Both the position numbers and the translations under genes were made by a program. Below the pieces are notes generated by a model. It had not been told where the DNA came from and made no database searches. It worked only from the letters and a program-made list of their open reading frames with translations. A DNA stretch of 64,000 nt from Chlorobiota bacterium (lineage in GTDB: Bacteria > Bacteroidota > Ignavibacteria > OLB7), in the NCBI GenBank assembly GCA_028287785.1, contig JAQBOZ010000001.1, forward strand, positions 62,001 through 126,000, given 5' to 3'. How positions within the stretch are numbered: position 1 is the first letter of the stretch; each line of letters opens with the position of its first letter. Below are positions 14,929 through 63,103 of this stretch, piece after piece.

Positions 14929-14960
14929 GATCGCCTCCTGAAAGGAGTGGGGAAAGGGTG

Positions 14961-15055
14961 TGCTGGGCGCTGCCCAGCGCACCAGGCATTGCGCCCCTCC
15001 GGGGCTTGGGAAGATGCTTCCGCCAGCGGCGGATGTCGTTGTTCAATAGTCTGCC
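14961..15055 (-). repeat. Dispersed GC-rich repeat family 2, copy 2
   Basis: Read on the minus strand it gives GCAGACTATTGAACAAC, CATCCGCCG, CAAGCCCCGGAGGGGCGCAA, CCTGGTGCGC and a GC-rich hairpin (CTGGGCAGCGCCCAG), the same block order as at 28005-28094. It lies between two same-strand surface-protein genes. Confidence 0.75.
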
Positions 15056-15129: not shown

Positions 15130-18100
15130 TCAATGGGTGATTCTGAACGCCACGCACAACCGCGCCGTCCGCGTCCGCAGCGTCGCGAAATAGAGCCCCG
15201 ATGACAACCCCGCCGTGCTGAACGGTACACTGTACGCGCCCGGCGAAATATCCCCATCCACCAGCACCGCAACACGACGACCCAGAGCATCGATCAGATT
15301 CACCTCCGTCCGTCCGTCCTCCACGATCTCATACTCCACCTCCCCCATACCGCTCACCGGGTTCGGACGTACCCCCTTCAGACCAACCGACCCATTGACC
15401 GTGATCAACCGGTTTCCGCCCGCAGGGCACACTCCCAGCAGATGGAACTCCCCATTGATCATAACCGCCGTCACCACGCTGTCGCCTCCACCAATCACAA
15501 ACCCCTCCAATCGAACCACCGTCGCCACCGTATCCCCGAGGGCCGCCATGAACTCCACATCCGCCAGCTTCCCGCTCGTCACGCCACCGGGGATGACCCC
15601 ATCGATCGTCACCAGGCGATCCTCCCCGTCGATCACGCCCATCGGCGTCGATCCGACTGGAAGAAGCAGGCTCCGATTGAACCGCAGACGCGCCTGATAC
15701 CCCCGCATCGCCGGGCTCTGTGGCAGGTTGTCCGATGAGACCACCGTCATCGGCAGCAGCACCCGCTGGCCCGGCATCGCCTCCACCGATCCCAGTGCCA
15801 CAACCACCTGACCGCGATACCCCGTTCGTGGCGCGATCACCACGTCGACCGCCGCGGAGCCGCGGCAGCCGCCGCTGTCGACAACCGATACGGCATACCT
15901 CCCACTGGCACGGACGATGAGGTGACGCGCAACGCGGCCACCACCCCAGTCGTAGGCGATATAGCCAGCGCCGGCATCCAGATCCACGCTGTCACCATCG
16001 GTGAGCTGGATCGGGCCGGCAGGCGCGATCGTGACCGGTGACGGCACGCGGCGTTCAACACGCAGATCCGACGATGAGCCCGAACAGCCGCCCGCGTCGC
16101 TCACCCTCACTCGGTAGATCCCGCTGTCGGCCACCCGGATCACCCGCGTCTGCTCCCCGCTCAACCATTGGTAGCTCGCATAGCCCGCACCGGCATCCAG
16201 CTCGATCGTGTCGCCGGGACAGAGCACCAGCGATCCCGACGGCGTGATCACCGGCTCCAGCGCCGTCCCGATCCCCACCGACCGATCCGGCGCCACACCC
16301 GCGCACCCGCCCGCCGACGAGCGCTCGACCAGACCGATGGTCCCCGATGAACCCGCACCCCAGCGGATATCCACCTGATGCGTCCCGGCGCCGCTGGTGA
16401 TCGCGCCGCCGCTCACGCTCCATGTGTAGTCATCTCCCGCGATCTCGTCCGTCGCATAGGTCGCCGTTGAGTTGATGCAGACCTTCGCCGGGCCGCTGAT
16501 CACCGGGGAGCGCGGCGCGGTCGTGGTGACATCGATCGTATCGGATGATCCGCTGCATCCGCCGATATCGCGGACCATCACGCCGTAGCGACCGGCCTTG
16601 AAGACGCGGATTGTCTGCGTCTGCTCGCCGCCGATCCAGAGGTAGCTCTGATAGCCGGCGCCGGCATCCAGCTCGATCGTATCCCCCGCGCAGAACGTCC
16701 GCGGGCCGCCGATCTCCGGCTTCAACGTGGTGCCGACATTGATATTCGTCGTCTGTGATGCGGAGCAGCCTGATACCGTATCGACGACGCTGACCTGGAG
16801 AGAACCCTGTCCGGTGTTGCCCCAGGCGACCGTGACGCCGCTGCTGTCATTGGCGCCGGAGATGGTGCCGTTGCCAAGGCAGGTCCAGTGATACCGAAGG
16901 CTGTCGTGATGCGGGACCGTGTAATGCGCCACCACGCCGGTGCAGACGAAGAACGGCCCGGTGATCGTCGCGACCGGGACGGGATGCACCGTCACCGTCA
17001 CCGTATCGGTCATCCCGATGCAGCCGTTTGCGTCGGTCACCGTCACGAAATAGCGGCCGGGCTCCCGAACGGCGATGCTCGGCGTGGTCCGCGTGTCGGA
17101 CCACTGATAGCCCGCGAAGGAGCCACCGCCGACATCGAGCAGGACGCTATCGCCGGCGCAGAATGAGAACGGCCCGTGCACCTGAAGCAGCGGATTGACC
17201 GGCGGATAATGCGCCACCGCGACGCTGCGGCTGACGGAGCAGCCGAAGACATTGGAGACCGTGACCGAGTAGGTCCCCGACTGCTTCACGCGGATCAACC
17301 GGGTGCTGTCGATCAGGTGGCCGGTGCTGTCGAACCATCGATAGTTCCTGTAGCCGGTGCCGGTTCCAATATCGAGCACGGCGCTGCTGTCGGTGCAGAC
17401 CCAGAGGGTATCGCCGAAGGAGAAGACGGGAACCGGCGGAGCGGGGTTGACCTGAACGTGGACCGGGCCGAAGTCCCAGAAGCAGCCGTTGACATCCTTG
17501 ACGGTGACGGAATAATCGCCGGTGGCCTTGACCCAGACGCGGGAGGTGGTATCGGCCAGCGGCGCGGACCAGCGATAGGAGACGAGCCCCGCGCCGGCGA
17601 TGGAGAGAAGGACGCTGTCCCCCACGCAGAAGTTGAGCGGCCCGGTGTTGGCGATCTTCAACGCCGGCCTTGCATTGACCTTCACGGTAACGGCGTTGGA
17701 GATGCCGGGACAGCCATCATTATCCTTCACGACCAGCGAATAGATCCCGGCCTTCTTTACGACAAGGTTCTGCGTGGTCTCGCCACCGGGGGACCACTTG
17801 TAGCTGAAGTATCCCGCGGGAGCCGAGAGGGTGATGCTCCCCCCCTCGCAGATCGCCAGAGGGCCGACCGGGGTGATCGGCACATCGATGCCGACATAGA
17901 ACCTGGCGAGAAATCCATCCGAATAGCCACCAAGGTAGTTCGGCTTGAGGGCACCGGGCGTCGTGGGGAAGCGTCGGCTGAAGGTTATGCCGGCAATGGC
18001 TACCCCCTCCGCGGAATCGAGCGCGACCGCATGGGAACGATCGGACGATTCGCCGCCGAGATAGGTGGACCAGACCAGCTGCCCGCGTGGGTTGAACTTT

Positions 18101-20061
18101 ACCAGGACCGCGTCCTCGTCGCCACCGGACGCGCGCTGATAGGCATCGGTCGTGACCGGAAAATCGGAACAGTTGGTGTAGCCGGTCACGAAGACATCGC
18201 CGCAGGGGGAAAGGCGAATCCCCTCACCGGAGTTGCTGATGGACGTTGGTGAAAGATCGATGGAGCCGCCGAAGTATGTGGACCAGATAAGCCGCCCGCC
18301 GTTGCTCAACTTGGCGACGAACATATCGAAGAAGCCACGTTTCCGCGGTTGCGCCGCTCCCGGCGTGACGGGAAAATCCGCGCTTTCCGTATATCCGGTG
18401 ATGACGATATCGCCGTTGTTCTGATCGGCATCGATGCCATTTCCCACATCGTTAAGAACTCCGCCGAAATAGGTTCCCCAGATCGGCGTTCCGAGCGGAT
18501 CGAGCTTCAGCACAAAGACATCGCTTACCCCGGCACTCCCGGCAAAGCCCGGCTGCAGTGCCCCCGCCGTGATGATCGATGACCCGGCATGACCTATCAG
18601 GCCGGTCAGAATGATATTCCCGGCCGCATCGGTCGTCACATCCATTCCTGCGTCCGCGTCATAGGCATATGCCCACAGGCGCGAGCCCACCGCATCGAAC
18701 TTCACAACAAAAACCGAACGCGGGCTGGGGCCGGGCGTTGTCAGCGGGAAATCGTTGCTGACCGTCTCTCCCAGGAGAATAACATTTCCCCGCCCATCGA
18801 TCCTGACACTGCCCGCGAGATCACTACTGCTCCCGCCATAGTAGGTCGACCATTTCAGCAGTCCTCCCGGCGTCATCGTCGCGATATACATATCCCCCTG
18901 TACACCGGGCGCCGGTTGCGATTGAAACGTGTTGCCGGCCAGCGGAAAATCGTGGCTGTATGTTGTTCCGGCCAGGGCCAGGTTGCCGGCCACGTCGGAG
19001 GATATCGCGCTGATAAATTCACCATCCGATCCGCCGAGATACGTTCCCCAGATCTCCGTTCCGCCAGGGGAGAACTTGACCACAAACTCATCGGATGCCC
19101 CTCGCATGGTGGCCTGCATGCCGTTCAGCACCGGAAAATCCGTGCTGGCGGTAACCCCCATCATGTAGATATTCTTCTGCCCGTCCACCGCGATCCGGCA
19201 ACTCCAGTAGCTGCTGCTGGGGATATCCTCACCGCTCCCTCCGATATAGGTCGCCCACTGAAGCGTCGGGTCGATCACCAGCGCCCGTGTAGTATCGTAT
19301 CGCTCCACGGCGAACCTGATATCGCTCCCCTCCAGCCCCATCCGGCAGCCAACGCCCTCTCGATGCTCAATCCCATCTCCCTGATACGCCACCGGCACTC
19401 CCTCCTCCACGGTGCCCAGCGGGGTCGTCACCACAATCTTCTCCCCCACCTTCTTCATCCCCCCGGCGCCATCGTACCGTACATGAATCATCGATGGATC
19501 GCCGCCCGGACGGACGATGAAATCGTACTTCAGAGCGCCATCGCGCGTGTAGAACGCCAGGTCGATGTTCGGATAGATGTCGTGGTAGATGAGGCGACGA
19601 AAATTTCCGACGCCGGTGATCCCCTGGGGACAATGCGGCAGGTAATAGTTGTTGGTCAGTTCCGACGGATCGCCGCTCTCGATCCTCGCCTGCGGGTTGG
19701 CGCCGACGAGCGTCATATCCATCCGGTAGCTCTCGACGGTATCCTCGATTGCCGGCGAGCGAGCGAGCGATGGCCGCAAAGGCTCGCGATGCGCGCGCGC
19801 GGAGTCGATATGATGGACGTTGAAGACGTAGCTGACGCCATCGCGCCGGAAATAGAGTCGCACATTGCCGAGGCCGGCGGTGTAGAGGAGATCGGGACGA
19901 GGTGATCCCTTCGTATCGATGATCTGTCCCCGGTTCTCCGTAAAGCTCAGCCCGGCCGTGTACGATCTGCCAAGCGAATCGCTGCTCTCCTGGCCGCGGG
20001 CGGAGCCCAGGATAAGGAGAAAGCTCAGAACGAGAAGCAGACCTGTACGCAGTGAAGGCAT
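15130..20061 (-). CDS. T9SS cargo: FxENRGQ/SBBP propeller protein with Ig-like repeats and cohesin-like domain
   Basis: 1643 residues from the ATG at 20061, where the signal peptide MPSLRTGLLLVLSFLLILGSARGQ begins; the open frame continues upstream to 20289 without support. Residues about 35-270 form the FTENRGQ domain common at the N-terminus of SBBP proteins. Residues about 275-770 are SBBP propeller repeats (W.TYxGGS.xD....I..D..GN....G.T.S.DFP). They are followed by about seven Ig-like repeats of a second kind (LCPGDTIELDAGAGYxSYxW ... GxYxVxVxDxxGC) interleaved with PKD-like repeats. A cohesin-like module lies at about 1400-1540 and a T9SS sorting domain ends the protein (GVRPNPVSGMGEVEYEI, VNLIDALGRRVAVLVDG, SGLYFATL). 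It is the first gene of the leftward surface locus, divergent from fni. A close relative is at 30241-35772. Confidence 0.88.
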   Translation of the reverse strand: MPSLRTGLLLVLSFLLILGSARGQESSDSLGRSYTAGLSFTENRGQIIDTKGSPRPDLLYTAGLGNVRLYFRRDGVSYVFNVHHIDSARAHREPLRPSLARSPAIEDTVESYRMDMTLVGANPQARIESGDPSELTNNYYLPHCPQGITGVGNFRRLIYHDIYPNIDLAFYTRDGALKYDFIVRPGGDPSMIHVRYDGAGGMKKVGEKIVVTTPLGTVEEGVPVAYQGDGIEHREGVGCRMGLEGSDIRFAVERYDTTRALVIDPTLQWATYIGGSGEDIPSSSYWSCRIAVDGQKNIYMMGVTASTDFPVLNGMQATMRGASDEFVVKFSPGGTEIWGTYLGGSDGEFISAISSDVAGNLALAGTTYSHDFPLAGNTFQSQPAPGVQGDMYIATMTPGGLLKWSTYYGGSSSDLAGSVRIDGRGNVILLGETVSNDFPLTTPGPSPRSVFVVKFDAVGSRLWAYAYDADAGMDVTTDAAGNIILTGLIGHAGSSIITAGALQPGFAGSAGVSDVFVLKLDPLGTPIWGTYFGGVLNDVGNGIDADQNNGDIVITGYTESADFPVTPGAAQPRKRGFFDMFVAKLSNGGRLIWSTYFGGSIDLSPTSISNSGEGIRLSPCGDVFVTGYTNCSDFPVTTDAYQRASGGDEDAVLVKFNPRGQLVWSTYLGGESSDRSHAVALDSAEGVAIAGITFSRRFPTTPGALKPNYLGGYSDGFLARFYVGIDVPITPVGPLAICEGGSITLSAPAGYFSYKWSPGGETTQNLVVKKAGIYSLVVKDNDGCPGISNAVTVKVNARPALKIANTGPLNFCVGDSVLLSIAGAGLVSYRWSAPLADTTSRVWVKATGDYSVTVKDVNGCFWDFGPVHVQVNPAPPVPVFSFGDTLWVCTDSSAVLDIGTGTGYRNYRWFDSTGHLIDSTRLIRVKQSGTYSVTVSNVFGCSVSRSVAVAHYPPVNPLLQVHGPFSFCAGDSVLLDVGGGSFAGYQWSDTRTTPSIAVREPGRYFVTVTDANGCIGMTDTVTVTVHPVPVATITGPFFVCTGVVAHYTVPHHDSLRYHWTCLGNGTISGANDSSGVTVAWGNTGQGSLQVSVVDTVSGCSASQTTNINVGTTLKPEIGGPRTFCAGDTIELDAGAGYQSYLWIGGEQTQTIRVFKAGRYGVMVRDIGGCSGSSDTIDVTTTAPRSPVISGPAKVCINSTATYATDEIAGDDYTWSVSGGAITSGAGTHQVDIRWGAGSSGTIGLVERSSAGGCAGVAPDRSVGIGTALEPVITPSGSLVLCPGDTIELDAGAGYASYQWLSGEQTRVIRVADSGIYRVRVSDAGGCSGSSSDLRVERRVPSPVTIAPAGPIQLTDGDSVDLDAGAGYIAYDWGGGRVARHLIVRASGRYAVSVVDSGGCRGSAAVDVVIAPRTGYRGQVVVALGSVEAMPGQRVLLPMTVVSSDNLPQSPAMRGYQARLRFNRSLLLPVGSTPMGVIDGEDRLVTIDGVIPGGVTSGKLADVEFMAALGDTVATVVRLEGFVIGGGDSVVTAVMINGEFHLLGVCPAGGNRLITVNGSVGLKGVRPNPVSGMGEVEYEIVEDGRTEVNLIDALGRRVAVLVDGDISPGAYSVPFSTAGLSSGLYFATLRTRTARLCVAFRITH

Positions 20062-20223
20062 AATGACTCTCGCGAGGAATGAAATGAAGCAGTGTAAGCG
20101 GCTGAAAGATACGGATATGTCGTGCATCCCGAACCTCTGCACCTGGGAGACGCATGGCACGGACGAATGATCACCGTGGATATTCGGCCGGAGAATGTAT
20201 CTTTTCCGCTTCACACGGGGATC

Positions 20224-21309
20224 ATGATGATAAACGACTCGCACGATGAAGCGGAGGGACGGCGAACCTCCAGCAGGAAGAAGGATCATGTGGATTTATG
20301 CGTCGGAAGCGATGTGACATTCCGAACGAAGCGGACCGGGCTGGAACGCTTCGAGCTGGTACATAACGCGCTCCCGGAGCTCGATTTCGATGAGGTCGAT
20401 CCCAGCATTCAGTTCCTTGGAAAGCACTGCTCCATGCCGCTGCTGGTCAGCTCGATGACCGGCGGGTACGAGGAAGCGGAGCGGATCAACCGCGAGCTTG
20501 GCGAGGTATGCGAGAGCCTCGGCATGCCGATGGGCGTCGGCTCGCAGCGCCAGGCGATGGAGGATACGCGATATCTCGAAAGCTTTCGCGCGGCCCGTCG
20601 CGCCGCCCCGTCGATTCCGATCTTCGGGAACATCGGCGGCGCGGAGGTGGCGCGGCATCCCGATATCGGCGCCATCCGGCGGCTGGGAGATATGATCGAG
20701 GCCGATGCCTTTGCCATCCATCTCAACCCTCTTCAGGAGCTTATGCAGCCCGAGGGAAACCCGAGCTTCCGGGGCGTGCTGGCCGGCATCGAGCGGCTGG
20801 TCCGGGAGCTGGAGATCCCGCTGATCGTCAAGGAGGTCGGCGCCGGACTCTCCGCCGATGTGGTGCGGCGCCTTCTCGATGCCGGCATCCGCTACATCGA
20901 CGTGGCCGGCGCGGGGGGCACAAGCTGGTCCGGTGTCGAGCTGCTCCGTCGCGGCCCGAATGCCGACGACGAGATGTTCTGGGACTGGGGAATCCCCACG
21001 GCCGACGCGATTATCGGTGCCGCGCCGCTCTGCGGGGACGCCGGGGCAACGCTTATCGCCTCGGGCGGGATCGGCGGCCCGCGCGATATCGCGATCTCGA
21101 TCGCCCTCGGGGCGCATCTGGCCGGCTCCGCCCGCATCCTCCTCCGCACTCTTCTGGACGAGGGGCAGACCGCGCTCTCGGATCTTCTGACCGGATGGCG
21201 GCGGCAGCTTCGCGGAATGATGTTCCTCTGCGGCGCGCGCGTGGTGGAGGATCTCCGGCACGCGAAACTTCATCTCCGGGAAGTACATGAAACCCGTGGG
21301 GCCGAATAG
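20224..21309 (+). CDS. fni: Type 2 isopentenyl-diphosphate delta-isomerase (FMN-dependent)
   Basis: 361 residues from the ATG at 20224 (GGGG about five bases upstream). This start places the diagnostic RKKDHVDLC motif near residue 17, as in the family; in-frame codons back to 20122 give an implausible extension. The enzyme interconverts IPP and DMAPP using reduced FMN in the cytosol. Recognisable elements are SSMTGG, GVGSQR, GNIGG, the catalytic LNPLQE segment (here HLNPLQE), VKEVGAG, AGAGGTSW and the C-terminal phosphate-binding SGGIGGPRDI. The length is normal for the family. The neighbour downstream is a polyprenyl diphosphate synthase, giving a short isoprenoid gene pair about 107 bp apart. 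The 162-bp gap to the divergent surface-protein gene must hold promoters in both directions; I could not assign them with confidence. Confidence 0.97.
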   Translation: MMINDSHDEAEGRRTSSRKKDHVDLCVGSDVTFRTKRTGLERFELVHNALPELDFDEVDPSIQFLGKHCSMPLLVSSMTGGYEEAERINRELGEVCESLGMPMGVGSQRQAMEDTRYLESFRAARRAAPSIPIFGNIGGAEVARHPDIGAIRRLGDMIEADAFAIHLNPLQELMQPEGNPSFRGVLAGIERLVRELEIPLIVKEVGAGLSADVVRRLLDAGIRYIDVAGAGGTSWSGVELLRRGPNADDEMFWDWGIPTADAIIGAAPLCGDAGATLIASGGIGGPRDIAISIALGAHLAGSARILLRTLLDEGQTALSDLLTGWRRQLRGMMFLCGARVVEDLRHAKLHLREVHETRGAE

Positions 21310-23086: not shown

Positions 23087-23187
23087 AGCGATGATTCGGA
23101 TGATTCGATGTGAAGCGCCCTCTGGCGCATGACGCAATCCCGAAGTTACGGCGACGGGGACGATCGGCCCAATCATCGGGATGTCTG

Positions 23188-26189: not shown

Positions 26190-26666
26190 ATGAAAGAACG
26201 GATAAGCCTTCTGCAGCGCGAGCTGAACCAGCCGAAGCCATTCGTCTCCCCCGCGCAGGAAGGGGTTGTGGCCCTCCTCTTCACGGCCGATCTTCTCCGG
26301 CGACGTCTGATCGCGATCGTCGAGCCGCACGGCATCACCTTGCAGCAGTACAATGTCCTCCGCATCCTCCGTGGCGCCGATGAGGGATTGCCCACCATGA
26401 CGATCGGCGAGCGGATGATCGAGCGGACGCCGGGCCTTACGCGTCTGCTGGATCGTCTGGAGGCCAAGGGTCTCGTCAACCGCGTCCGCGGCGGCGTTGA
26501 TCGTCGTCAGGTCCGCTGTACAATCTCCACGGCCGGCCTTGCGCTCCTCAAGAAGCTCGATCCCGTGATTGACGCGGCCAACGAGAATCTCCTGGGCTCC
26601 CTTGGCGATAAGGAACGGCGGAAGCTGGTGGAGATGCTCGAAATCATCCGTTCAGGGATCTCATAA
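26190..26666 (+). CDS. MarR-family transcriptional regulator
   Basis: 158 residues. It is a winged-helix dimeric repressor with an N-terminal dimerisation helix (VVALLFTADLLRRRLIAIVEPHGIT), the recognition region TIGERMIERTPGLTRLLDRLEAKGLVNR, the wing Asp-Arg pair in GGVDRRQVRCTIS and the C-terminal dimerisation helices. The length is typical. The gene has its own Bacteroidota-type promoter covered by palindromes, and a perfect palindrome sits 14 bp after its stop. It therefore probably represses itself and perhaps the gene to its right. The ligand is unknown. No Shine-Dalgarno is visible before the ATG, consistent with a leaderless transcript. Confidence 0.93.
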   Translation: MKERISLLQRELNQPKPFVSPAQEGVVALLFTADLLRRRLIAIVEPHGITLQQYNVLRILRGADEGLPTMTIGERMIERTPGLTRLLDRLEAKGLVNRVRGGVDRRQVRCTISTAGLALLKKLDPVIDAANENLLGSLGDKERRKLVEMLEIIRSGIS

Positions 26667-26699: not shown

Positions 26700-26737
26700 C
26701 AACCGTTCAGGCTTCATCTCCCTGATACAGCGAGCGG

Positions 26738-27026
26738 GTAGTGACTCAGTCTGGGATGACATTCATGATGGCTGGAATTCCGGGCAGCATCCGGCATCGG
26801 TCGTTCCAGCCCCATCGGGGCGAACCGGTTGTAGCAATGATACACCTTCCATGATTTCAGGCTCCAGAGGAGCGTACCGTTCCTCATGGGTGTGGGGATG
26901 GTTCGCTCCTCTGGAGCTTGTGCGGGAAAGGGGAGCATCGTTGCTACAACCGGCGCGCTCCGATGGAGCTTGAAGAGCGAAGAAGGGATCGATGATCGTC
27001 AGCAGATTCAAATTGAGTCACTACCC
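26738..27026 (+). repeat. Dispersed hairpin repeat family 1, copy B (complete, with flanking direct repeat)
   Basis: Complete ~289-bp element. GTAGTGACTCAG at the left end mirrors TGAGTCACTAC (27014-27024) at the right; counting flanking G/C bases, the terminal repeat reaches 13 bp (GGGTAGTGACTCA). The 10-mer CAGCGAGCGG occurs immediately outside both ends (26728-26737 and 27027-27036), as expected of a target-site duplication. Internal inverted repeats (CCGGTTGTAGCAATGAT / TTGCTACAACCGG and GGCTCCAGAGGAGCG / CGCTCCTCTGGAGC) give a cruciform-like structure. It has no coding capacity of its own, so it is a MITE-like element. Confidence 0.85.
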
Positions 27027-27134
27027 CAGCGAGCGGAATTGCTGGCTTCGCATGCCTCGATTCCGTATCTACCGGAAATGGCGCCGGCACGATCCACCCC
27101 CGATAACCGACCGCCCATCTCCCAATGTCCGTTC

Positions 27135-28016
27135 ATGATCATGAAGCTGCTACGCTATTCAAACGCCGGTGATTTTATCGCCCGGACAGGCCGGTTTCTC
27201 GAATCCCGCGAGGCCGAGAACAACCTTATCCTCGGCATTGCCGGCCGGCTTCCAGCGCTCTTCGAAACGTCGGGCCCGAGCCCCTACCTCGCGACCATTG
27301 AACATGATGAACGTGGGGATATCGCGGGAGCATGTATCCGCACGGCATTGAACAGGGCGGTGCTGACACGCATGCCGGAGCGGGGAATCGAAATGATCGT
27401 GGATGATCTGGCGGACATCGGCGTGGAATATCCCGGCTTCGTGGGACCGGCGCGGGAAGCGAAGCTGGCGGCCGGACTATGGCGCGAGCGAACCGGCGGA
27501 ACGTTCAGGTTGACGATGGAGATGAGGATCTATGAGCTGGACCGGGTGATCCCCCCCGCCCGAATGGATGGTGCGTTGCGGGCGGCCACTGATGATGATA
27601 TCGATATCGCCGTGACATTCGCCACCGCGTTCGTGGCGGAGGTCGGACTTGTATCGCCCGTGATGACGATAGAGGAGATCGTAAAGGGGTACATCAGGGA
27701 GCGACGGCTCTATCTCTGGGATCTGAACGGGAAGCCCGTTTCAATGGCGGGATGTATCGGGCCAACGCCCAACGGCATCAGAATCAACTATGTGTATACG
27801 CCGCCGGAACTTCGCGGGAACGGCTACGCCAGCCAGTGCGTGGCGGCGCTCAGCCAGCATCTTCTCGATTCCGGACGGCGCTTCTGCTTTCTCTTCACCG
27901 ATCTGGCAAACCCCGTTAGCAACTCGATCTATCAGCGGATGGGCTATCGCCCGGTCGCGGATTTCAGTGAGTATGAGCTGGCGTGGCCGGTTCCCGGCGT
28001 CCCGGCAGACTGTTGA
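27135..28016 (+). CDS. GNAT-family N-acetyltransferase
   Basis: 293 residues from the ATG at 27135 (a second ATG two codons later is possible); the frame is open back into the repeat but without support. The N-terminal half (about 1-145) is a divergent GNAT-like or regulatory domain. The C-terminal half holds the acetyl-CoA-binding signature IRINYVYTPPELRGNGYASQCVAALSQ (Q/RxxGxG/A form, about 215-240), followed by FTDLANPVSNSIYQRMGYRPV, which is typical of the last strands. The substrate is unknown. The stop codon lies inside a short dispersed repeat (28005-28094), so the last residues (ADC) are contributed by repeat DNA. It sits downstream of the MarR gene and a MITE-like element. Confidence 0.85.
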   Translation: MIMKLLRYSNAGDFIARTGRFLESREAENNLILGIAGRLPALFETSGPSPYLATIEHDERGDIAGACIRTALNRAVLTRMPERGIEMIVDDLADIGVEYPGFVGPAREAKLAAGLWRERTGGTFRLTMEMRIYELDRVIPPARMDGALRAATDDDIDIAVTFATAFVAEVGLVSPVMTIEEIVKGYIRERRLYLWDLNGKPVSMAGCIGPTPNGIRINYVYTPPELRGNGYASQCVAALSQHLLDSGRRFCFLFTDLANPVSNSIYQRMGYRPVADFSEYELAWPVPGVPADC

Positions 28017-28094
28017 ACAACATCATCCGCCGTGCTATCCTCTCAAGCCCCGGAGGGGCGCAACACCTGGTGCGCGGGGCGATGCCCCGCGCAC
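28005..28094 (+). repeat. Dispersed GC-rich repeat family 2, copy 3
   Basis: It begins GCAGACTGTTGAACAAC, then CATCCGCCG, CAAGCCCCGGAGGGGCGCAA, CCTGGTGCGC and a GC hairpin (GCGGGGCGATGCCCCGC). The same ordered blocks occur at 14961-15055 (reverse strand) and, degraded, at 5823-5900. This copy fills the gap between two convergent genes and supplies the stop codon of the GNAT gene. Confidence 0.75.
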
Positions 28095-30240: not shown

Positions 30241-33200
30241 TTACTTACTGATCACGATCGGCAGCAGATCCCGCTCGGCCCCGTTTCTGAGCTCGAGCAT
30301 ATAGACGCCTGAGCTCTCCTCGCCGATCTTCACCCGCGCCTCCTGCGTCCCTCCCGTGCCGGCCGGAAGCCTGGTCAGCGATGCCTCGCGCCCGGTAAGA
30401 TCGACCACCCGGAGTTCCGGGAAGGTGCCCAGGGGCGCGTGATAGACGATCACCGCCTCGCTCGCCACCGGGTTCGGGCGGATCGATTCGATGCGCGCCA
30501 GCTTTCCCGCCCCGAAGCCGGTTCCAATATCGCATCCAGAAAGGATCACAAGGCCATTCCCCGCAATCGCAGGGCTCTGCGTGCCGAACAACTGGAATGA
30601 ATCGAGCAGCACCACCGTGAGCGGATGGGCCGTTGCCAGCCCCTCGAACTCCAGCTTCAACAACTCCCCGCCGGACAGAATGCCGCTGCGGCCCGGCCTG
30701 TCGATCGCGATCGTGCCGTTGGCGATGGTTGTCCTTCCGGCCGGATCGCCGGTAAGGGTGCGGTCCGGAGAGATGATATCGTGCAGAAAGAGGCTGTTGG
30801 GATCGAACTTGATGACAGCATGATAGCCGCTGATGGAATCGCGCAATGTCAGCGGCGATATTATCCTGAGCGTTACCCAGAGCCGCTGGCCGACCCTGGC
30901 GGATGTGGTATCGAGCCATACCACTCGCGGCCCACCCGATGGAATGGACTGAACGCGGAAGGGATCGGAGATGGCCCGGCAGCCGAACTCTCCCACGATC
31001 GTCACGGCGTAGAGCCCCGGCCCGTCGGCATGCAGCCGCTGGTCGGTGGCGCCGGCGATCGGCTCGCCATCGCGTGCCCACTGATAGGCAAGGCCGGGGG
31101 TGGAGATCAGGGTATCGTCCTCCGAGACGATCGATGGCCGTGCCGGAGAGGGGAGCACCGTGACGGCAACATCCCCGGAAACGCCGTCGCACCCATTCGC
31201 GTCGGTCACGCGCACCGAATATGATCCGCCGGACTTCACCACGATCGACCGCGCCGAGGCGCCATTGGACCAGGAGTAGCCGGCATATCCGATCCCGGCA
31301 TCCAGCACGACACTATCCCCCTGGCAGAGCTCAAGCGCCCCGCTGGGGACGATCGCCGGCGATGGAACCGGGTTGACACTGATGATTGCCGGCGACGAAA
31401 CTCCCAGGCAGCCGTTCGCATCGAGCACCGTCACCGAATAGCTGCCGGTATCGCCGACCTGGATGGTCCGCGTGGTGGCGCCATTGCTCCAGAGGTAGCT
31501 CAGGTAGCCATCCCCCGCGTCCAGCGTAACGCTGCTTCCGCGACAGATGGTGAGATCGCCCGACGCGGCGACGACAGGCTCCAGCTTGTCGCCGATCGCC
31601 ACCTGGTATGGTCGCGCGCTATCGATGCACCCGATGGCGTTGGCCTCCAACAGATCGATCGCCGCGTTGCCATCGCTTCCCCACATGATGCTCACCGCGC
31701 TGGTCCCCTGCCCTGATACAATCGTACCGCCATCAACCCTCCAGGTATAGCTATGCCCGGTCTGCGTCGGGACCGTATAGGCGATGGTGGAATTGCGGCA
31801 CACCACGGAAGGCCCGTGAATGGCCGGATTCGGCTTCTCCGAAAGCGTGACCGGAACATCGGGCGAGAGGCCGCTGCAACCGTTGCTGTCGGTGACGAGC
31901 ACCGTATAGACCCCCTGCTGCCCCACGCTGAGCCTCCTCGTGGTTGCCCCGGTGTTCCAGAGATACGCACTGTAGCCATCTCCGGCATCCAGCACGATAT
32001 TCTCTCCGCGACAGACAACCGTCCCCACCGGAGCGGTAACCAACGGCTTCGGCGGCTCGACGCTTCTGGATACGATAAACGGGGCGGACTCGCCGGCGCA
32101 GCCACCGGCATCGACCACTGTGCAGGAATAGCCGCCGGCCTGCCAGACGGTGATATGCCGGGTATGGGCGCCGTTCGACCAGAGGTAGCTGGAATAATCC
32201 CCGGCATCCAGGATCACGCTGTCGCCGCCGCAAAGCCGGGGGGAACGGCTGGGCACGATCACCGGCGTCAGGGAATTGCCGACCTGCACCGTAAACGCTG
32301 CATCGGCGATGCAGCCGGTGGAATCATTGAGTATCGTCACCCTGATCTTTCCCGCCCCGGAAGATCCCCATTGTACGGAAATCCGGTTCGTGCCGATGCC
32401 GGAGACGATCGCGCCATTGCCATCGATGGTCCAGTCATAGGCGCAGCCGTGAATGGCGGGAACGGAATAGCTGGATGTGGAGTTGCGGCATACCGCCACC
32501 GGCCCGCTGACCTGTGCCTGCGGCCGGGTGAACACCGCGACGTTCACCACATCGGACATCCCCTGGCAGCCCCGGTCATTTGCAACGGTGACTCTGTACT
32601 CGCCCGGCTCGCGCACGGTGATGCTTGGCGTGGTCTGTCCCGTCGACCACAGATAGGAGCTGTAGCCGCCCCCCGCGTCGAGCATCAGGCTGTCGCCCCG
32701 GCAGAAGCGGGTGGGGCCGTAGGCGGCGATGATCGGGACAGGCTTTGCGCTGGCGCGGATGATGACCTCGGCGGTGGAACTGCACCCGTTGGAATCGGTG
32801 ACGGCCAGCACATAGGTCCCGGACTTCTTGACGGTGATCGTTCGGGCATTCTCGCCGGTGGACCAGTGATATGCGGCATAGGCGCCGGCGCAGGTGACGA
32901 TGGAACTGTCCCCCTCACAGAATGTGGTGGGGAGAAGCCATGCGATTTTCGGCTTCGGCGCCTGATATACCTTCACCGGGATGCTCTGCGTGACACCGGA
33001 ACAACCGGCCGCGTTGAACACGCGCACGCTGTAGTTGCCCGATTTCCGCACGACGATCCGCTGGGCCGTCTCTCCGTTGGACCAGAAGTAGTTAGCGTAG
33101 CCGGCACCCGCATCGAGCACCAGGCTATCCCCCTCGCAGAATGTCCGCTCACCGGTCATCGCGATCGATGGCGTGGGACGGGGGCTGAGCGTGACGACCA

Positions 33201-35772
33201 CGGTATCGGAACGATTGCTGCACCCGTTGCTGTCGGTAAAGGCGACATTGTAGATGCCGGGCTGACGGACCGTGATGCTCGGCGACAGCTCGCCGTTCGA
33301 CCATCGATAGGCGGCCATGCCGGCGTTTGCGTAGAGGATGACGCTATCCCCCTGACAGAGCGAGGCGGAGCCGATCACGCCGATAATCTGATGCGGAAGC
33401 TGATTGACGATCACCGAAACCGTATCGGTGATCCCCATGCAGGCACCGGAGCCCACCGAGGCCCAGTATCTGCCGGTCTGGCTGACGGTGATTTTTCTGG
33501 TTGTGGCGCCCGTGTTCCACACATACGAGTCGAACCCGACCGGCGCCGTAAGAACCGTGGAATCGCCGGCGCAGAATCGCGTTGGACGAAGCGGGGTAAT
33601 GGTGGCCGAGACGTTGCAGAACTGCGTGATGAACATATCGTACTGCCCACCGCTGTTCCGCTGGAACGCCCCCGGCGTGACCGGAAGATCGACACTGAAG
33701 GTGTTCCCGGAAACGATGACGCCGAACTTGCTCAGGCTGATCCCGCTGGCGTATTCGACATTCGTGCCGCCGAAATATGTTGACCAGAGCCTCCCTCCCC
33801 CCGGATCGAGCTCCACGATCGTGGCATCGCCCGAGCCCTTCAGCGTTAACTGATAGGCATCCGAAGTCAACGGGAAGTTGGGGCTGTAGCTGCTTCCGAC
33901 CATCCAGATATTGTCGTGCGAATCGGTGGCAATGCCGCCGCCATAATCCCAGTCCTGGCCGCCGTAGAAGGTGCTCCAGAGCCGCTTTCCACTGGGATCG
34001 AACTTTGCCGCGAACGCATCGCCGTTGCCGCCGTAGGAGCCTTGAACCGGCGCCTTTATCGGGAAATCGGAGCTGTAGGTATATCCGGTCACGATCACGT
34101 TGTTCTTCCGATCGGTCGTGATCGCGTCGCCGAACTCCGTCTGGCTTCCCCCCATGTAGGTCGACCAGATCTGGCCGCCGTTGCTGTCCAGCTTGCAGAC
34201 GAAAGCGTCGTTGGAGCCGAAGAGCGATAGCTGCGGGGCCTGGCTCGTTACCGGAAAATCCGAGCTGAACGTGCTTCCGGTGGCGACCACATTCCGGTTG
34301 CCGTCGATTGCGACGCCGTAGATGTAATCATTCAGATGACCGCCGTAGTACGTGGCCCACCGGAGCGCGCCTCCACCGCTGAACTTGGCGATAAAACCAT
34401 CCGACAGCGCGCTGTTGGCAGTGGCCTGGAATGCTCCCGCCGTGGTGGTCATCCCTCCCAGCGCGTAACCGCCCACCACGAAGTTGCCGGCGGGATCGCT
34501 CGCGACCGAATAGCAGTAGCCGCCATGATAGAACGTGGCCCAGAGCCGGACGCCGTTGCTGTCCAGCTTGACCAGGAACCCGGTGGTTCCCGGCGTGTAC
34601 GATGTCTGAAACGCGCCGGGAGTTATCGGAAAATCGGAGCTGACGGTATAGCCGGTAAAGGCCACGCTTCCGTCGTCGTCGAATGTGATGCCGTAGCTGT
34701 AATCGGTCTGCGCGCCGCCGTAGTACGTGGCCCAGAGCCGCGAGCCGGAGGGGGAGAATTTGGCGACGAACGCATCGTACATATTCCCCGATGTCAGGGT
34801 TGTCTGATATGCCCCCGGCGTCACGGGAAAATTGATGCTGGTGGTGGAGCCGGTAACCACAACGTTGCCATTGGCATCCGCGGCGGACGCGCCGCCATAG
34901 GTCCAGAGCATGGAGATGTCGCTGCCGGTGCCGCCGCAGTATGTGGACCAGATCAACGTGGGATCGATGACCAGAGGCTGGCTGCGATCGTACTTGCGGA
35001 CATCGAAGCCGATCGATTCCCCACGCACCGAATAGTTGCTGCCGATCAGGTTGACCGGGCGATTATCCCCCGCTCCGTCACGATGATATCCCTGATACGT
35101 ATACGGCTTCCCCTCCTCCACCTGGCCGAGCGGAGAGGAGATGACCACGCGCCCGTCCAGGGCAAGCCTGGTGCTGTCGGCGCCGATGTAATGAATGCGT
35201 ATATCCTCGACACGCCCGCCGGGACGCACGATGAAATCGTACTTGAGCCCCTTGCCGGTGCTGTAGAAAACGATGTCGATGTTCGGGAAGATCTCGTGGT
35301 AGGTCAGCTTGTGGAAGCTCCGCACCCCGCTGATGCCGCCGGGATTCCGTCCGGTGTAGAAGCTCAGGCCCTCTGACGCTTCGTCATCCGGCGTCACAAT
35401 CACATCGGGGTTGGCCCCCTGCAACTCCATATCGACCCGGCAGATCGTCACCGCCGAAGCGGTATCCGGGGAGGTGGGGAGGCGGCGACCGGATTGATCG
35501 ACGGGCCGCGGTTGTCCATTGAAACGGACGAACACATAGCTGATGCCGGACTTCCTGAAGAACAGTTTCGCTCCCCCCGCCTCCGTGGTATAGAGGATAT
35601 CGGGACGGGGCTCTCCCGCCGCATCGATAACCTGTCCGCGATTTTCAACGAAACGAACATCCCCCACCCCAACCGCGCGCGCAATATCAACAGGCTGCGA
35701 CCGTGCGACCATCGTCAGCACGGCGCTCATCAGAAGATACATGCCCGGCAATAGGGTAAGGCGTAGCTTCAT
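30241..35772 (-). CDS. T9SS cargo: FxENRGQ/SBBP propeller protein with about twelve Ig/PKD-like repeats
   Basis: 1843 residues from the ATG at 35772, which has a GAGGGG Shine-Dalgarno and the signal peptide MKLRLTLLPGMYLLMSAVL; the extension to 35847 is unsupported. Order of domains: FVENRGQ domain (about 40-270), SBBP propeller (about 280-750; WSTYxGGS, GNVVVTGSTxSxxFPVTPGAxQ), and about twelve Ig-like or PKD-like repeats (about 755-1590). Most of these read FCxGDSxxLDAGxGYxxYxWSNGxTTRxIxVxxxGxYxVxVTDxNGC; two are PKD-like with a CRNST start. A cohesin-like module (about 1610-1730, VWLDTTSARVGQRLWVTL) and a T9SS sorting domain (SIRPNPVASEAVIVY, VVDLTGREASL, SGVYMLEL) complete it. At about 1.8k residues it is the largest product in the window. 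Divergent from an ECF sigma gene across 447 bp. Confidence 0.9.
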   Translation of the reverse strand: MKLRLTLLPGMYLLMSAVLTMVARSQPVDIARAVGVGDVRFVENRGQVIDAAGEPRPDILYTTEAGGAKLFFRKSGISYVFVRFNGQPRPVDQSGRRLPTSPDTASAVTICRVDMELQGANPDVIVTPDDEASEGLSFYTGRNPGGISGVRSFHKLTYHEIFPNIDIVFYSTGKGLKYDFIVRPGGRVEDIRIHYIGADSTRLALDGRVVISSPLGQVEEGKPYTYQGYHRDGAGDNRPVNLIGSNYSVRGESIGFDVRKYDRSQPLVIDPTLIWSTYCGGTGSDISMLWTYGGASAADANGNVVVTGSTTSINFPVTPGAYQTTLTSGNMYDAFVAKFSPSGSRLWATYYGGAQTDYSYGITFDDDGSVAFTGYTVSSDFPITPGAFQTSYTPGTTGFLVKLDSNGVRLWATFYHGGYCYSVASDPAGNFVVGGYALGGMTTTAGAFQATANSALSDGFIAKFSGGGALRWATYYGGHLNDYIYGVAIDGNRNVVATGSTFSSDFPVTSQAPQLSLFGSNDAFVCKLDSNGGQIWSTYMGGSQTEFGDAITTDRKNNVIVTGYTYSSDFPIKAPVQGSYGGNGDAFAAKFDPSGKRLWSTFYGGQDWDYGGGIATDSHDNIWMVGSSYSPNFPLTSDAYQLTLKGSGDATIVELDPGGGRLWSTYFGGTNVEYASGISLSKFGVIVSGNTFSVDLPVTPGAFQRNSGGQYDMFITQFCNVSATITPLRPTRFCAGDSTVLTAPVGFDSYVWNTGATTRKITVSQTGRYWASVGSGACMGITDTVSVIVNQLPHQIIGVIGSASLCQGDSVILYANAGMAAYRWSNGELSPSITVRQPGIYNVAFTDSNGCSNRSDTVVVTLSPRPTPSIAMTGERTFCEGDSLVLDAGAGYANYFWSNGETAQRIVVRKSGNYSVRVFNAAGCSGVTQSIPVKVYQAPKPKIAWLLPTTFCEGDSSIVTCAGAYAAYHWSTGENARTITVKKSGTYVLAVTDSNGCSSTAEVIIRASAKPVPIIAAYGPTRFCRGDSLMLDAGGGYSSYLWSTGQTTPSITVREPGEYRVTVANDRGCQGMSDVVNVAVFTRPQAQVSGPVAVCRNSTSSYSVPAIHGCAYDWTIDGNGAIVSGIGTNRISVQWGSSGAGKIRVTILNDSTGCIADAAFTVQVGNSLTPVIVPSRSPRLCGGDSVILDAGDYSSYLWSNGAHTRHITVWQAGGYSCTVVDAGGCAGESAPFIVSRSVEPPKPLVTAPVGTVVCRGENIVLDAGDGYSAYLWNTGATTRRLSVGQQGVYTVLVTDSNGCSGLSPDVPVTLSEKPNPAIHGPSVVCRNSTIAYTVPTQTGHSYTWRVDGGTIVSGQGTSAVSIMWGSDGNAAIDLLEANAIGCIDSARPYQVAIGDKLEPVVAASGDLTICRGSSVTLDAGDGYLSYLWSNGATTRTIQVGDTGSYSVTVLDANGCLGVSSPAIISVNPVPSPAIVPSGALELCQGDSVVLDAGIGYAGYSWSNGASARSIVVKSGGSYSVRVTDANGCDGVSGDVAVTVLPSPARPSIVSEDDTLISTPGLAYQWARDGEPIAGATDQRLHADGPGLYAVTIVGEFGCRAISDPFRVQSIPSGGPRVVWLDTTSARVGQRLWVTLRIISPLTLRDSISGYHAVIKFDPNSLFLHDIISPDRTLTGDPAGRTTIANGTIAIDRPGRSGILSGGELLKLEFEGLATAHPLTVVLLDSFQLFGTQSPAIAGNGLVILSGCDIGTGFGAGKLARIESIRPNPVASEAVIVYHAPLGTFPELRVVDLTGREASLTRLPAGTGGTQEARVKIGEESSGVYMLELRNGAERDLLPIVISK

Positions 35773-36219
35773 CAAAAACCCCTCAACTAAGTGAGAACCA
35801 AACGAGCGAAAAGGGAACGTTCCGATACGATAACCACACGGCGGCACGGCCGAACGGCAAGTGGGGTGAGTGAGGAAGCTGATGCCGCCGATGCAATCTA
35901 CTATTACCCGAACGTAAAATAGATAACTATCCCGTAAGACGATGCCTGACAGTCATGGGATTCGGAAGCAGGCGACGGGGATGTCGCGCGCGGGGCACGT
36001 TCCTGATCCGGCTGTCCGCCGGCGGATCAGGGCCCTTCCGGAGCGAAATATCAACGGCACCCGGGAGGAATTCACCGGCAGAGGATATACCAACCTATCA
36101 TGCCGTATTATATAGAACGCATGGCGGAGACGAAACATCACAACGAAAAAAAAGATCACCCCGTGTGATGTTTCATCGAGCTGCCCCGTTATTGATGTAC
36201 ACTCGATGTAACGATTACC
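35773..36219. other. Divergent intergenic region between SBBP gene and ECF sigma gene
   Basis: 447 bp with no credible gene. It must carry promoters for both directions, but I could not identify a convincing TAnnTTTG element. It contains a hairpin with 9-bp arms, CCTGATCCG (36002-36010) and CGGATCAGG (36023-36031). The ECF sigma/anti-sigma pair to the right could recognise a site here. Confidence 0.5.
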
Positions 36220-61113: not shown

Positions 61114-61683
61114 ATGCGCGCTCACATTATCATGATCATGGCGGCCGGCATCCTGGCCGCGCTCGCCTCGTGCGGATCACCTCTCGACGTTACCACGCCG
61201 AGGATCGACACGCGCCTGACCAACGCCATCAAGCTGCGGGAAGTATCGGTGAACGCGAGGATCGTGGGGACTGATGATTCCGTGACGATCGACTCCTGGC
61301 CGTACGATGTAACCGGGTCGAGCCTCTCCGCCGATACCAACGCGGAGCCGCCACCGGTATCGCTCGACCGGAGCATGACATCCCGCGCCGCCGATACCAT
61401 CCGCGCCGTCTGGCTCCAGGAGCTTCGCATCCGCATCGACACGGCCAGCTCCAACGGGATCATCACGCTGAACGGCAATGCCGCATCAGGCTCCGGGGCA
61501 TCCGCCCGGATCGTGATCGATGGCGTGGAGCATCTGATCGCCACCGGCTACAATGCCAGCGCGGTCCTGCATTACAGCCGCGACAATCGGCGGACCATCC
61601 ACGGGACGATTCTCATCGGCGCGGAACGTCCCTCCGCCTTCATCCTCCTGATCGCCATCAACTTCACCGCCAGCCAGGACTGA
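61114..61683 (+). CDS. Small lipoprotein of the sigma/anti-sigma operon
   Basis: 189 residues. The signal is MRAHIIMIMAAGILAALASCGSP with a lipobox (ALASC, Cys about residue 20). The mature region is beta-rich with Thr/Ser/Asp-rich loops (RLTNAIKLREVSVNARIVG, LQELRIRIDTASSNGIITLNG, ARIVIDGVEHLIATGYNAS) and ends in a hydrophobic strand (AFILLIAINFTASQD). I do not recognise a family. Its start lies four bases after the anti-sigma/barrel stop, so translation is probably coupled. Its likely role is as a periplasmic or outer-membrane partner of that protein, by position only. Confidence 0.8.
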   Translation: MRAHIIMIMAAGILAALASCGSPLDVTTPRIDTRLTNAIKLREVSVNARIVGTDDSVTIDSWPYDVTGSSLSADTNAEPPPVSLDRSMTSRAADTIRAVWLQELRIRIDTASSNGIITLNGNAASGSGASARIVIDGVEHLIATGYNASAVLHYSRDNRRTIHGTILIGAERPSAFILLIAINFTASQD

Positions 61684-61700
61684 TCGTCGTGCCCGCGCCG

Positions 61701-61999
61701 GTAGTGACTCAGATTGGGATAGGGTTCATGCTGTTTGGGCTCATGGAGGGCATTCGGCATCTCTCCGTATCTGTCCTTCCAGCCCCATCGGGGCGCGCCG
61801 GTTGTAGCGATGCCACGTCTTGCATGAACTCGAGCTCCATCGGAGCGTACCATTCGGCACGGATGCGGGGATGGTACGCTCCTGAGCGGGAACGGGGGCC
61901 TCGTTGCTACAACCGGCGCGCTCCGTTGGAGCTTGAAGAGTGATAACGTGATCGATGATCGTTCAGGGGACCGGGGGAGGGATTCAACATCAGTGACTT
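61701..61999 (+). repeat. Dispersed hairpin repeat family 1, copy C
   Basis: It starts GTAGTGACTCAG at 61701, 17 bp after the lipoprotein stop, in the same orientation as copy B. It contains CCAGCCCCATCGGGGCG, CCGGTTGTAGC, GCTCCATCGGAGCGTACCATT, TTGCTACAACCGGCGCGCTCCG and GGAGCTTGAAGAG, in the same order as the other copies. The right terminal repeat is degraded (CAGTGACTT at about 61991-61999). The interval 62000-62119 up to the next gene is non-coding with no feature recognised. Confidence 0.85.
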
Positions 62000-62119
62000 C
62001 CCCCGCGCCATCCAGGTTGTTCCCCACGCTCCACTTTCCGATCTTGCCATCCGTCGCCAGGGCGTATCAGCCATTGAACGGCGGCATTCATCGGGCGGAC
62101 TATCACTGGAAACGGCAGC

Positions 62120-63103
62120 ATGAAACGTCGCAGCTTTCTTCAGGCGTCGGGATTTACCCTGACGGCTTTTTTCGTATCACGCACGATCGTCGCGCGCGAG
62201 CTTCTGCATGGCTTCTGGCTGAAGATCGCCAACCCATCGGTCGTGAAGGACGCGCGGCCCATTCCGGCATTCACCCCCTTCACCCCGCCGCGCTCGGAGG
62301 GGATGCGGTTTCTGATCCTGGGCGACTGGGGAACCGGGGGACGCGAGCAGGCCGATGTTGCCAGGGCGATGGCCCGCACCGCCACGCAGAGCGGCTGCGA
62401 CTACGTCATCTCCGTCGGCGACAACATCTATCCCTCCGGCGTCTCCTCGGCGGCCGATGAGCAGTGGAAACGGAAGTTCGTCGATGTCTACTACGGCCAG
62501 GGGCTGCGCCAGCCCTTCTTCCCCACGCTCGGCAACCACGATTACAAGCTGGAGCCGGACGCGCAGATCGCCTACAGCAGGGTCAACGAGCAGTGGCGGT
62601 TTCCGGCGCGCTACTACACCCAGAAGCTGACCGCGAAGGATGGAACCACGGTGCAGATCTTCTCGCTCGATACACAGCTCGTGGACAGGAGCGTGGCGGG
62701 AGCGGCCGCGGAACAGCGGGCATGGCTGGATAGCGAGCTGGGGAAATCGACTGCGCGGTGGAAGATCGTCTTCGGCCATCACATGCTCTACTCCAACGGC
62801 GTCTACGGCAACCTGAAGCCGCTCCGCGCCGCATTCGAGGATATCCTCGTAAAGCACAAGGTCCCGCTCTACATGTGCGGCCATGACCACGACATCCAGC
62901 TTCTGAAGCCGGTGAACGGCGTCAGCTACCTGATCTCCGGCGGCGGCGGCGGCCACCGCGACACATCATGGCGCGACAACACGATCTACGCGGCCACGAA
63001 CATGGGATATGTCTGGATGGTGGTGACGAGGGATGGCATCCATGTACACTTTCACGATGCTGACGGGGCCTTGAAGTACGCGCACAAGGTGATTTCCGCC
63101 TAG
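62120..63103 (+). CDS. Tartrate-resistant acid phosphatase-like metallophosphoesterase (Tat-type signal)
   Basis: 327 residues. The N-terminus MKRRSFLQASGFTLTAFF has the twin-arginine motif RRSFLQ, so export folded through Tat is likely. Metallophosphoesterase motifs are complete: FLILGDWG (first Asp), VGDNIYPSG (GDN), TLGNHDYK (GNHD), FGHHMLYS and CGHDHDIQLL (GHxH). The order and spacing, including YPSG after GDN and a DVYYGQG segment, resemble purple/tartrate-resistant acid phosphatases that hydrolyse phosphomonoesters with a binuclear metal centre. No phosphate-regulation element is visible. It is convergent with the FAH-family gene across a terminator hairpin. Confidence 0.92.
   Translation: MKRRSFLQASGFTLTAFFVSRTIVARELLHGFWLKIANPSVVKDARPIPAFTPFTPPRSEGMRFLILGDWGTGGREQADVARAMARTATQSGCDYVISVGDNIYPSGVSSAADEQWKRKFVDVYYGQGLRQPFFPTLGNHDYKLEPDAQIAYSRVNEQWRFPARYYTQKLTAKDGTTVQIFSLDTQLVDRSVAGAAAEQRAWLDSELGKSTARWKIVFGHHMLYSNGVYGNLKPLRAAFEDILVKHKVPLYMCGHDHDIQLLKPVNGVSYLISGGGGGHRDTSWRDNTIYAATNMGYVWMVVTRDGIHVHFHDADGALKYAHKVISA

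Follow-up and report, generated by a model that had tools for sequence, protein, structure and literature searches.

A short repeat separates a MarR-family gene (26190-26666) from a GNAT gene within a window of 64,000 nucleotides, which is the whole stretch of DNA that was analysed (C34:62001-126000). The host genome comprises 4.75 Mb in 37 contigs, and its assembly is 95% complete. The locus raises the question of whether this repeat is a transposed element or an inherited structure and, if it was transposed, which enzyme moved it. The answer proposed here is that the repeat belongs to a transposed MITE family that duplicates 8 bp of its target and shares its exact ends with IS1-like transposons found elsewhere. 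Very probably, it is a non-autonomous element, about 309 bp long when young and intact, whose ends would be recognised in trans by a single-frame IS1-family transposase producing the 8-bp duplication.

Copies in the window and their boundaries

The first-pass annotation described the central repeat, referred to here as copy B, as a MITE-like element with terminal inverted repeats, and this description was borne out. Copy B is 289 bp long and contains no gene. Its termini are formed by GGTAGTGACTCA in inverted orientation and are enclosed by the direct repeat AGCGAGCG. As the left end reads GGTAGTGACTCAG and the right end, when reversed, reads GGTAGTGACTCAA, 12 bp are perfectly inverted. The features of the three copies are as follows.

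26737..27025, + strand: MITE copy B, 289 bp, an old copy with 77% identity to its nearest relative
26737..26749, + strand: left terminal inverted repeat of copy B, GGTAGTGACTCAG
27013..27025, - strand: right terminal inverted repeat of copy B, TTGAGTCACTACC
26729..26736, no strand: left target duplication of copy B, AGCGAGCG
27028..27035, no strand: right target duplication of copy B, AGCGAGCG, preceded by two extra C (27026-27027)
23187..~23449, - strand: MITE copy A, inverted and truncated, with the terminal repeat at 23187 kept and the other absent
61700..62001, + strand: MITE copy C, complete, with a degenerate right end
61692..61699, no strand: left target duplication of copy C, CCCGCGCC
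62002..62009, no strand: right target duplication of copy C, CCCGCGCC

The flanks of copy B can also be parsed as a 9-bp repeat, CAGCGAGCG, with one extra C. A flanking repeat displaced by 1-2 bases is found in a few elements (copy B, L090, and L012:1818), as if an indel had occurred at the terminus. Copy B is considered old since its nearest relative is 77% identical. The GNAT gene probably starts at ATG 27135 or 27141; its longest ORF reading (26886-28016, + strand) begins within copy B. On one side of copy C an ORF ends at 61683, and on the other lies a calcineurin-like phosphoesterase gene (62120-63103); the 8-bp duplication of this copy is perfect. No target duplication was found at copy A, and there the intergenic region could not be aligned with that of the sister species, so a clean between-species empty site was not found at this locus. 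The window also encodes SBBP-repeat proteins of very large size that carry a type IX secretion sorting domain (15130-20289 and 30241-35847, both on the - strand), which points to a host related to the Bacteroidota.

A dispersed family with 8-bp target duplications

When copy B was used as a query against the host genome, many long matches were obtained, spread over most contigs and for the most part 76-85% identical. The genome-wide search for the ends that the annotation had suggested revealed 117 exact sites of the 11-mer GTAGTGACTCA (59 forward and 58 reverse), distributed over most contigs, while the same letters read backwards were absent in both orientations. The repeat family is thus real and dispersed, with conserved internal blocks as the annotation had stated; however, it consists of about 100 copies rather than the three noted in the window.

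Paired ends were collected from 60 fetched loci and another 40 stretches of host sequence. The 64 rows obtained, in which one element appears twice, correspond to 63 distinct elements, 228-485 bp long. An 8-bp repeat with at most one mismatch directly abuts the ends in 40 of the 63, where approximately 0.02 would be expected by chance; the flanking 8-mers are identical in 21 elements and differ at one position in 19. The target duplication is therefore 8 bp long. The annotation was right to read the flanking repeat as a target-site duplication but gave its length as 10 bp, and the tenth base of that repeat is the first G of copy B itself. It had also named copies lacking duplications and always occupying conserved positions as the mark of vertical inheritance; duplications proved to be common. 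Any target-site preference amounts to at most 0.13 bits per position. The family thus shows defining features of MITEs: short length, absence of a transposase gene, terminal inverted repeats, a duplication of fixed length, and dispersal in many copies.

The copies date from several waves of different age. A young subfamily comprises 16 copies of about 309 bp, the intact young form, which are mostly 93-97% identical to the nearest copy, indicating fairly recent activity; most copies outside it are 75-89% alike. One element is nested within another at about C2:305,6xx. Removal of the inner element together with one 8-bp flank restores a full-length element of 304 bp, which aligns over its whole length with another copy (87% identity, one gap), and whose own flanks differ at 2 of 8 positions. 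In four dimers (L008, L012, L026, and L081), two elements lie exactly 8 bp apart, which could reflect either successive insertions into one site or tandem duplication.

Several young, intact copies have no duplication, and their flanks recur on the opposite side of a different copy (L015 right and L020 left; L020 right and L055 left; L021 left and L066 right; L063 left and L092 right). The same pattern is seen in three pairs of contig ends (L014/L082, L024/L078, and L028/L089), while about 0.02 exact random matches are expected among 57 flanks. Such swapped flanks reflect either recombination between copies or joins made during assembly. That the copies are in part an artefact of short-read contigs joined at a repeat is the least probable of the explanations considered: many contigs break off within a copy, and the flanks of several intact young copies match other copies or contig ends, but this would account for the swapped flanks and not for 40 elements that each carry their own duplication.

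Identical ends on IS1-like transposons and the search for a transposase

The 18-bp end GGTAGTGACTCAGTTTGA occurs in at least 97 stretches of a species-genome collection, where 7 or 8 were estimated by chance. Many of these are MITEs with 8-bp duplications, found in Acidobacteria, FCPU426, Chitinophaga, and others; in other phyla, the same ends surround unrelated foldbacks. The annotation had also proposed looking for a transposase with the same ends, and this search led, outside the host, to two complete transposons, L199 and L278, which carry exact GGTAGTGACTCAGTTTGA inverted at both ends and perfect 8-bp duplications. Three further transposons have ends of the GGTAGTG type.

L199, 962-3497: transposon of 2536 bp from a Verrucomicrobia MAG, encoding a 274-aa IS1-like transposase
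L278, 1656-5041: transposon of 3386 bp from a viral-contig collection, encoding a 314-aa IS1-like transposase
L294, 296-3665: transposon with an IS1-like transposase, GGTAGTG-type ends, and an 8-bp duplication
L295, 767-3400: transposon with an IS1-like transposase, GGTAGTG-type ends, and an 8-bp duplication
L296, 55-4278: transposon with an IS1-like transposase, GGTAGTG-type ends, and an 8-bp duplication

The duplication length in all five is that of the MITE family. The transposases of L199 and L278 exceed the cut-off of Pfam IS1. Scores of the related single-frame transposases are 29.5-31.9 bits against Pfam PF03400 (cut-off 24.1), but 57 and 64 bits against the NCBI IS1 equivalog (NCBIfam), below its cut-off of 100. 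Relatives on plasmids that are annotated as IS1 family are bounded by GGTAGTGGGTCAGTTTGA or GGTAGTGTCTCAGTTTGA and flanked by 8-bp duplications; the ends of these plasmid elements, of the GGTAGTG[GGG/TCT]TCAGTTTGA type, are near-identical to GGTAGTGACTCAGTTTGA. L278 carries P63C-domain and ABC substrate-binding genes, and RmrA/RmrT-like, PD-Lambda-2_B-like, and RES-domain genes were seen among the extra genes of the five transposons, which may be cargo transposons for defence or toxin-antitoxin modules. Separately, a 1495-bp element at L214:1017-2511, in a partly masked record, has near-identical ends, a duplication with one mismatch, and a nucleotidyltransferase-like ORF.

Single-ORF members of the IS1 family, which we take to be the ISMhu11 group of ISfinder, resemble the MITE in ends that begin with GGTAGTG or GGTAATG and in an 8-bp duplication, and in L199 and L278 the identity of the ends extends over 18 bp. 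In contrast to these members, the MITE has no transposase gene, and hairpin DNA makes up its roughly 309 bp. The terminus of E. coli IS1A reads GGTAATGACTCCAACTTA; its end GGTAATGACTC matches the MITE end at 10 of the first 11 bases and at 12 of 18 overall, but IS1A is 768 bp long with insA and insB, and the homology is confined to the end. The end of ISDge2, also of the IS1 family, was reported as GGTAGTGGCTGC (PMC7674623). MITEAba12 and similar bacterial MITEs are likewise non-coding, bear terminal inverted repeats and duplications, and are presumed to be mobilised in trans by a parent IS (PMC6382973). MITEAba12 shares these properties with the host MITE but has 9-bp duplications and other ends (PMC6382973), in contrast to 8 bp and IS1-type ends here, and the host family is much larger in copy number and divergence. 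The literature that was searched contained no description of an IS1-type MITE with these ends. We consider this a new IS1-type MITE family, although the kind of element is already familiar.

The annotation saw no transposase in the window and expected mobilisation in trans. This agrees with the whole host genome, where Pfam IS1 (PF03400) has no match, no intact transposase bounded by such ends turned up in the 95% complete assembly, and the only trace found is a decayed IS1-like transposase fragment with two stops (G000:C35:28159-28347). Within the class, relatives encode single-frame proteins of roughly 290 aa with weak IS1 scores and GGTAGTG-type ends close by. In the sister species an IS1-like gene is intact, but the end found beside it reads GGTACTGGGTCAATTTGA. 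This species (G001) also has a family of its own, 266-271 bp long, with the same ends and 8-bp duplications; its best copies contain three or four mini-palindromes of similar form, and it does not align with the host MITE family. Two candidate sources were set aside: classical IS1 matches in the class (L129-L144) are without such ends, and a long-range end pair in L123 (6088/8774) has no transposase among the listed ORFs of at least 100 aa.

In the mechanism proposed, a single-reading-frame IS1-family transposase would recognise the GGTAGTGACTCAG...CTGAGTCACTACC ends in trans and insert the element at a staggered cut, so that 8 bp of target would be duplicated, while the MITE would contribute the ends alone, its interior being a long imperfect hairpin without a gene. 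As nothing beyond a decayed remnant of such an enzyme was found in the host assembly, we infer the trans mobilisation: most likely, an IS1-like transposase moved the host copies and has since been lost or was left unassembled. Weighing against this reading are the absence of an intact matching transposase from the host assembly, the end beside the sister-species gene, and the scores below the NCBI equivalog cut-off. Duplications of 8 bp fit IS1595 as well, and the host has three IS1595 genes, so that an enzyme of another family, most plausibly of this type, could have moved the element. We consider this unlikely, since none of the three genes has matching ends or an 8-bp-flanked end pair nearby, while the exact 18-bp ends sit on IS1-like transposons.

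Less probable still is a vertically inherited structured element, either a conserved RNA or a REP/BIME-type palindrome array, with incidental direct repeats. The interior does have features that invite this reading. Copy B forms a single long hairpin whichever strand is folded, and so does the tested strand of a young copy; the folding is very strong, and the + strand fold is more stable in 50 of 61 copies. Each intact copy contains two mini-palindromes in either orientation, four in all, with the form AGCYCC-nnn-GGRGCG; these resemble REP/BIME in being short, GC-rich, and alternating in orientation, and relatives of Y1 transposases occur in the host genome. However, the 8-bp duplications, the sharp ends, and the nested insertion contradict this reading as a full explanation, and the host MITE differs from REP/BIME in being bounded by transposon ends and target duplications. 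A REP/Y1-transposase origin of the interior was also rejected, as the flanks of Y1 genes hold at most one similar motif and no linkage was found; the inspected motif sites without a nearby exact end are located in decayed copies. An Rfam search gave no match, and the covariation term of the consensus is near zero. Among substitutions in the young subfamily, G-U and A-C pairs stand at 13 to 7 for private and 32 to 49 for shared changes, without a consistent preference for G-U, and stem positions are substituted about as frequently as the rest. A conserved RNA function was rejected on these grounds, with no sign of selection for RNA pairing; a function gained after insertion is possible. Elsewhere in the window, an inverted repeat pair of 58 bp with 83% identity (14958-15015 and 28037-28094) has a AGCCCCGGAGGGGCG palindrome in a style like that of the internal palindromes, without MITE ends.

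Significance for the host and for the wider system

With a transposed MITE moved by an IS1-like transposase as the preferred reading, a formerly anonymous repeat becomes a placed and roughly dated mobile family whose likely transposase can be named. Because many contigs terminate within a copy, the family limits the host assembly. Its copies mark the assembly breaks, and because pairs of contig ends share exact 8-bp duplications on opposite sides of the element, these could serve as scaffolding information and help to rejoin contigs.

Beyond this host, the evidence is about evenly poised on a broader proposal, in which the GGTAGTGACTCAGTTTGA end would mark a transposition system spanning several phyla. 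In such a system, an IS1-like single-frame transposase would move both gene-carrying transposons and many hairpin MITEs of independent origin, and hosts could keep large MITE families after the transposase has been lost. The cargo of the GGTAGTGACTCAGTTTGA-ended system would include toxin-antitoxin-like and defence-like genes. The same ends lead, outside this host, to gene-carrying IS1-type transposons that deserve cataloguing.
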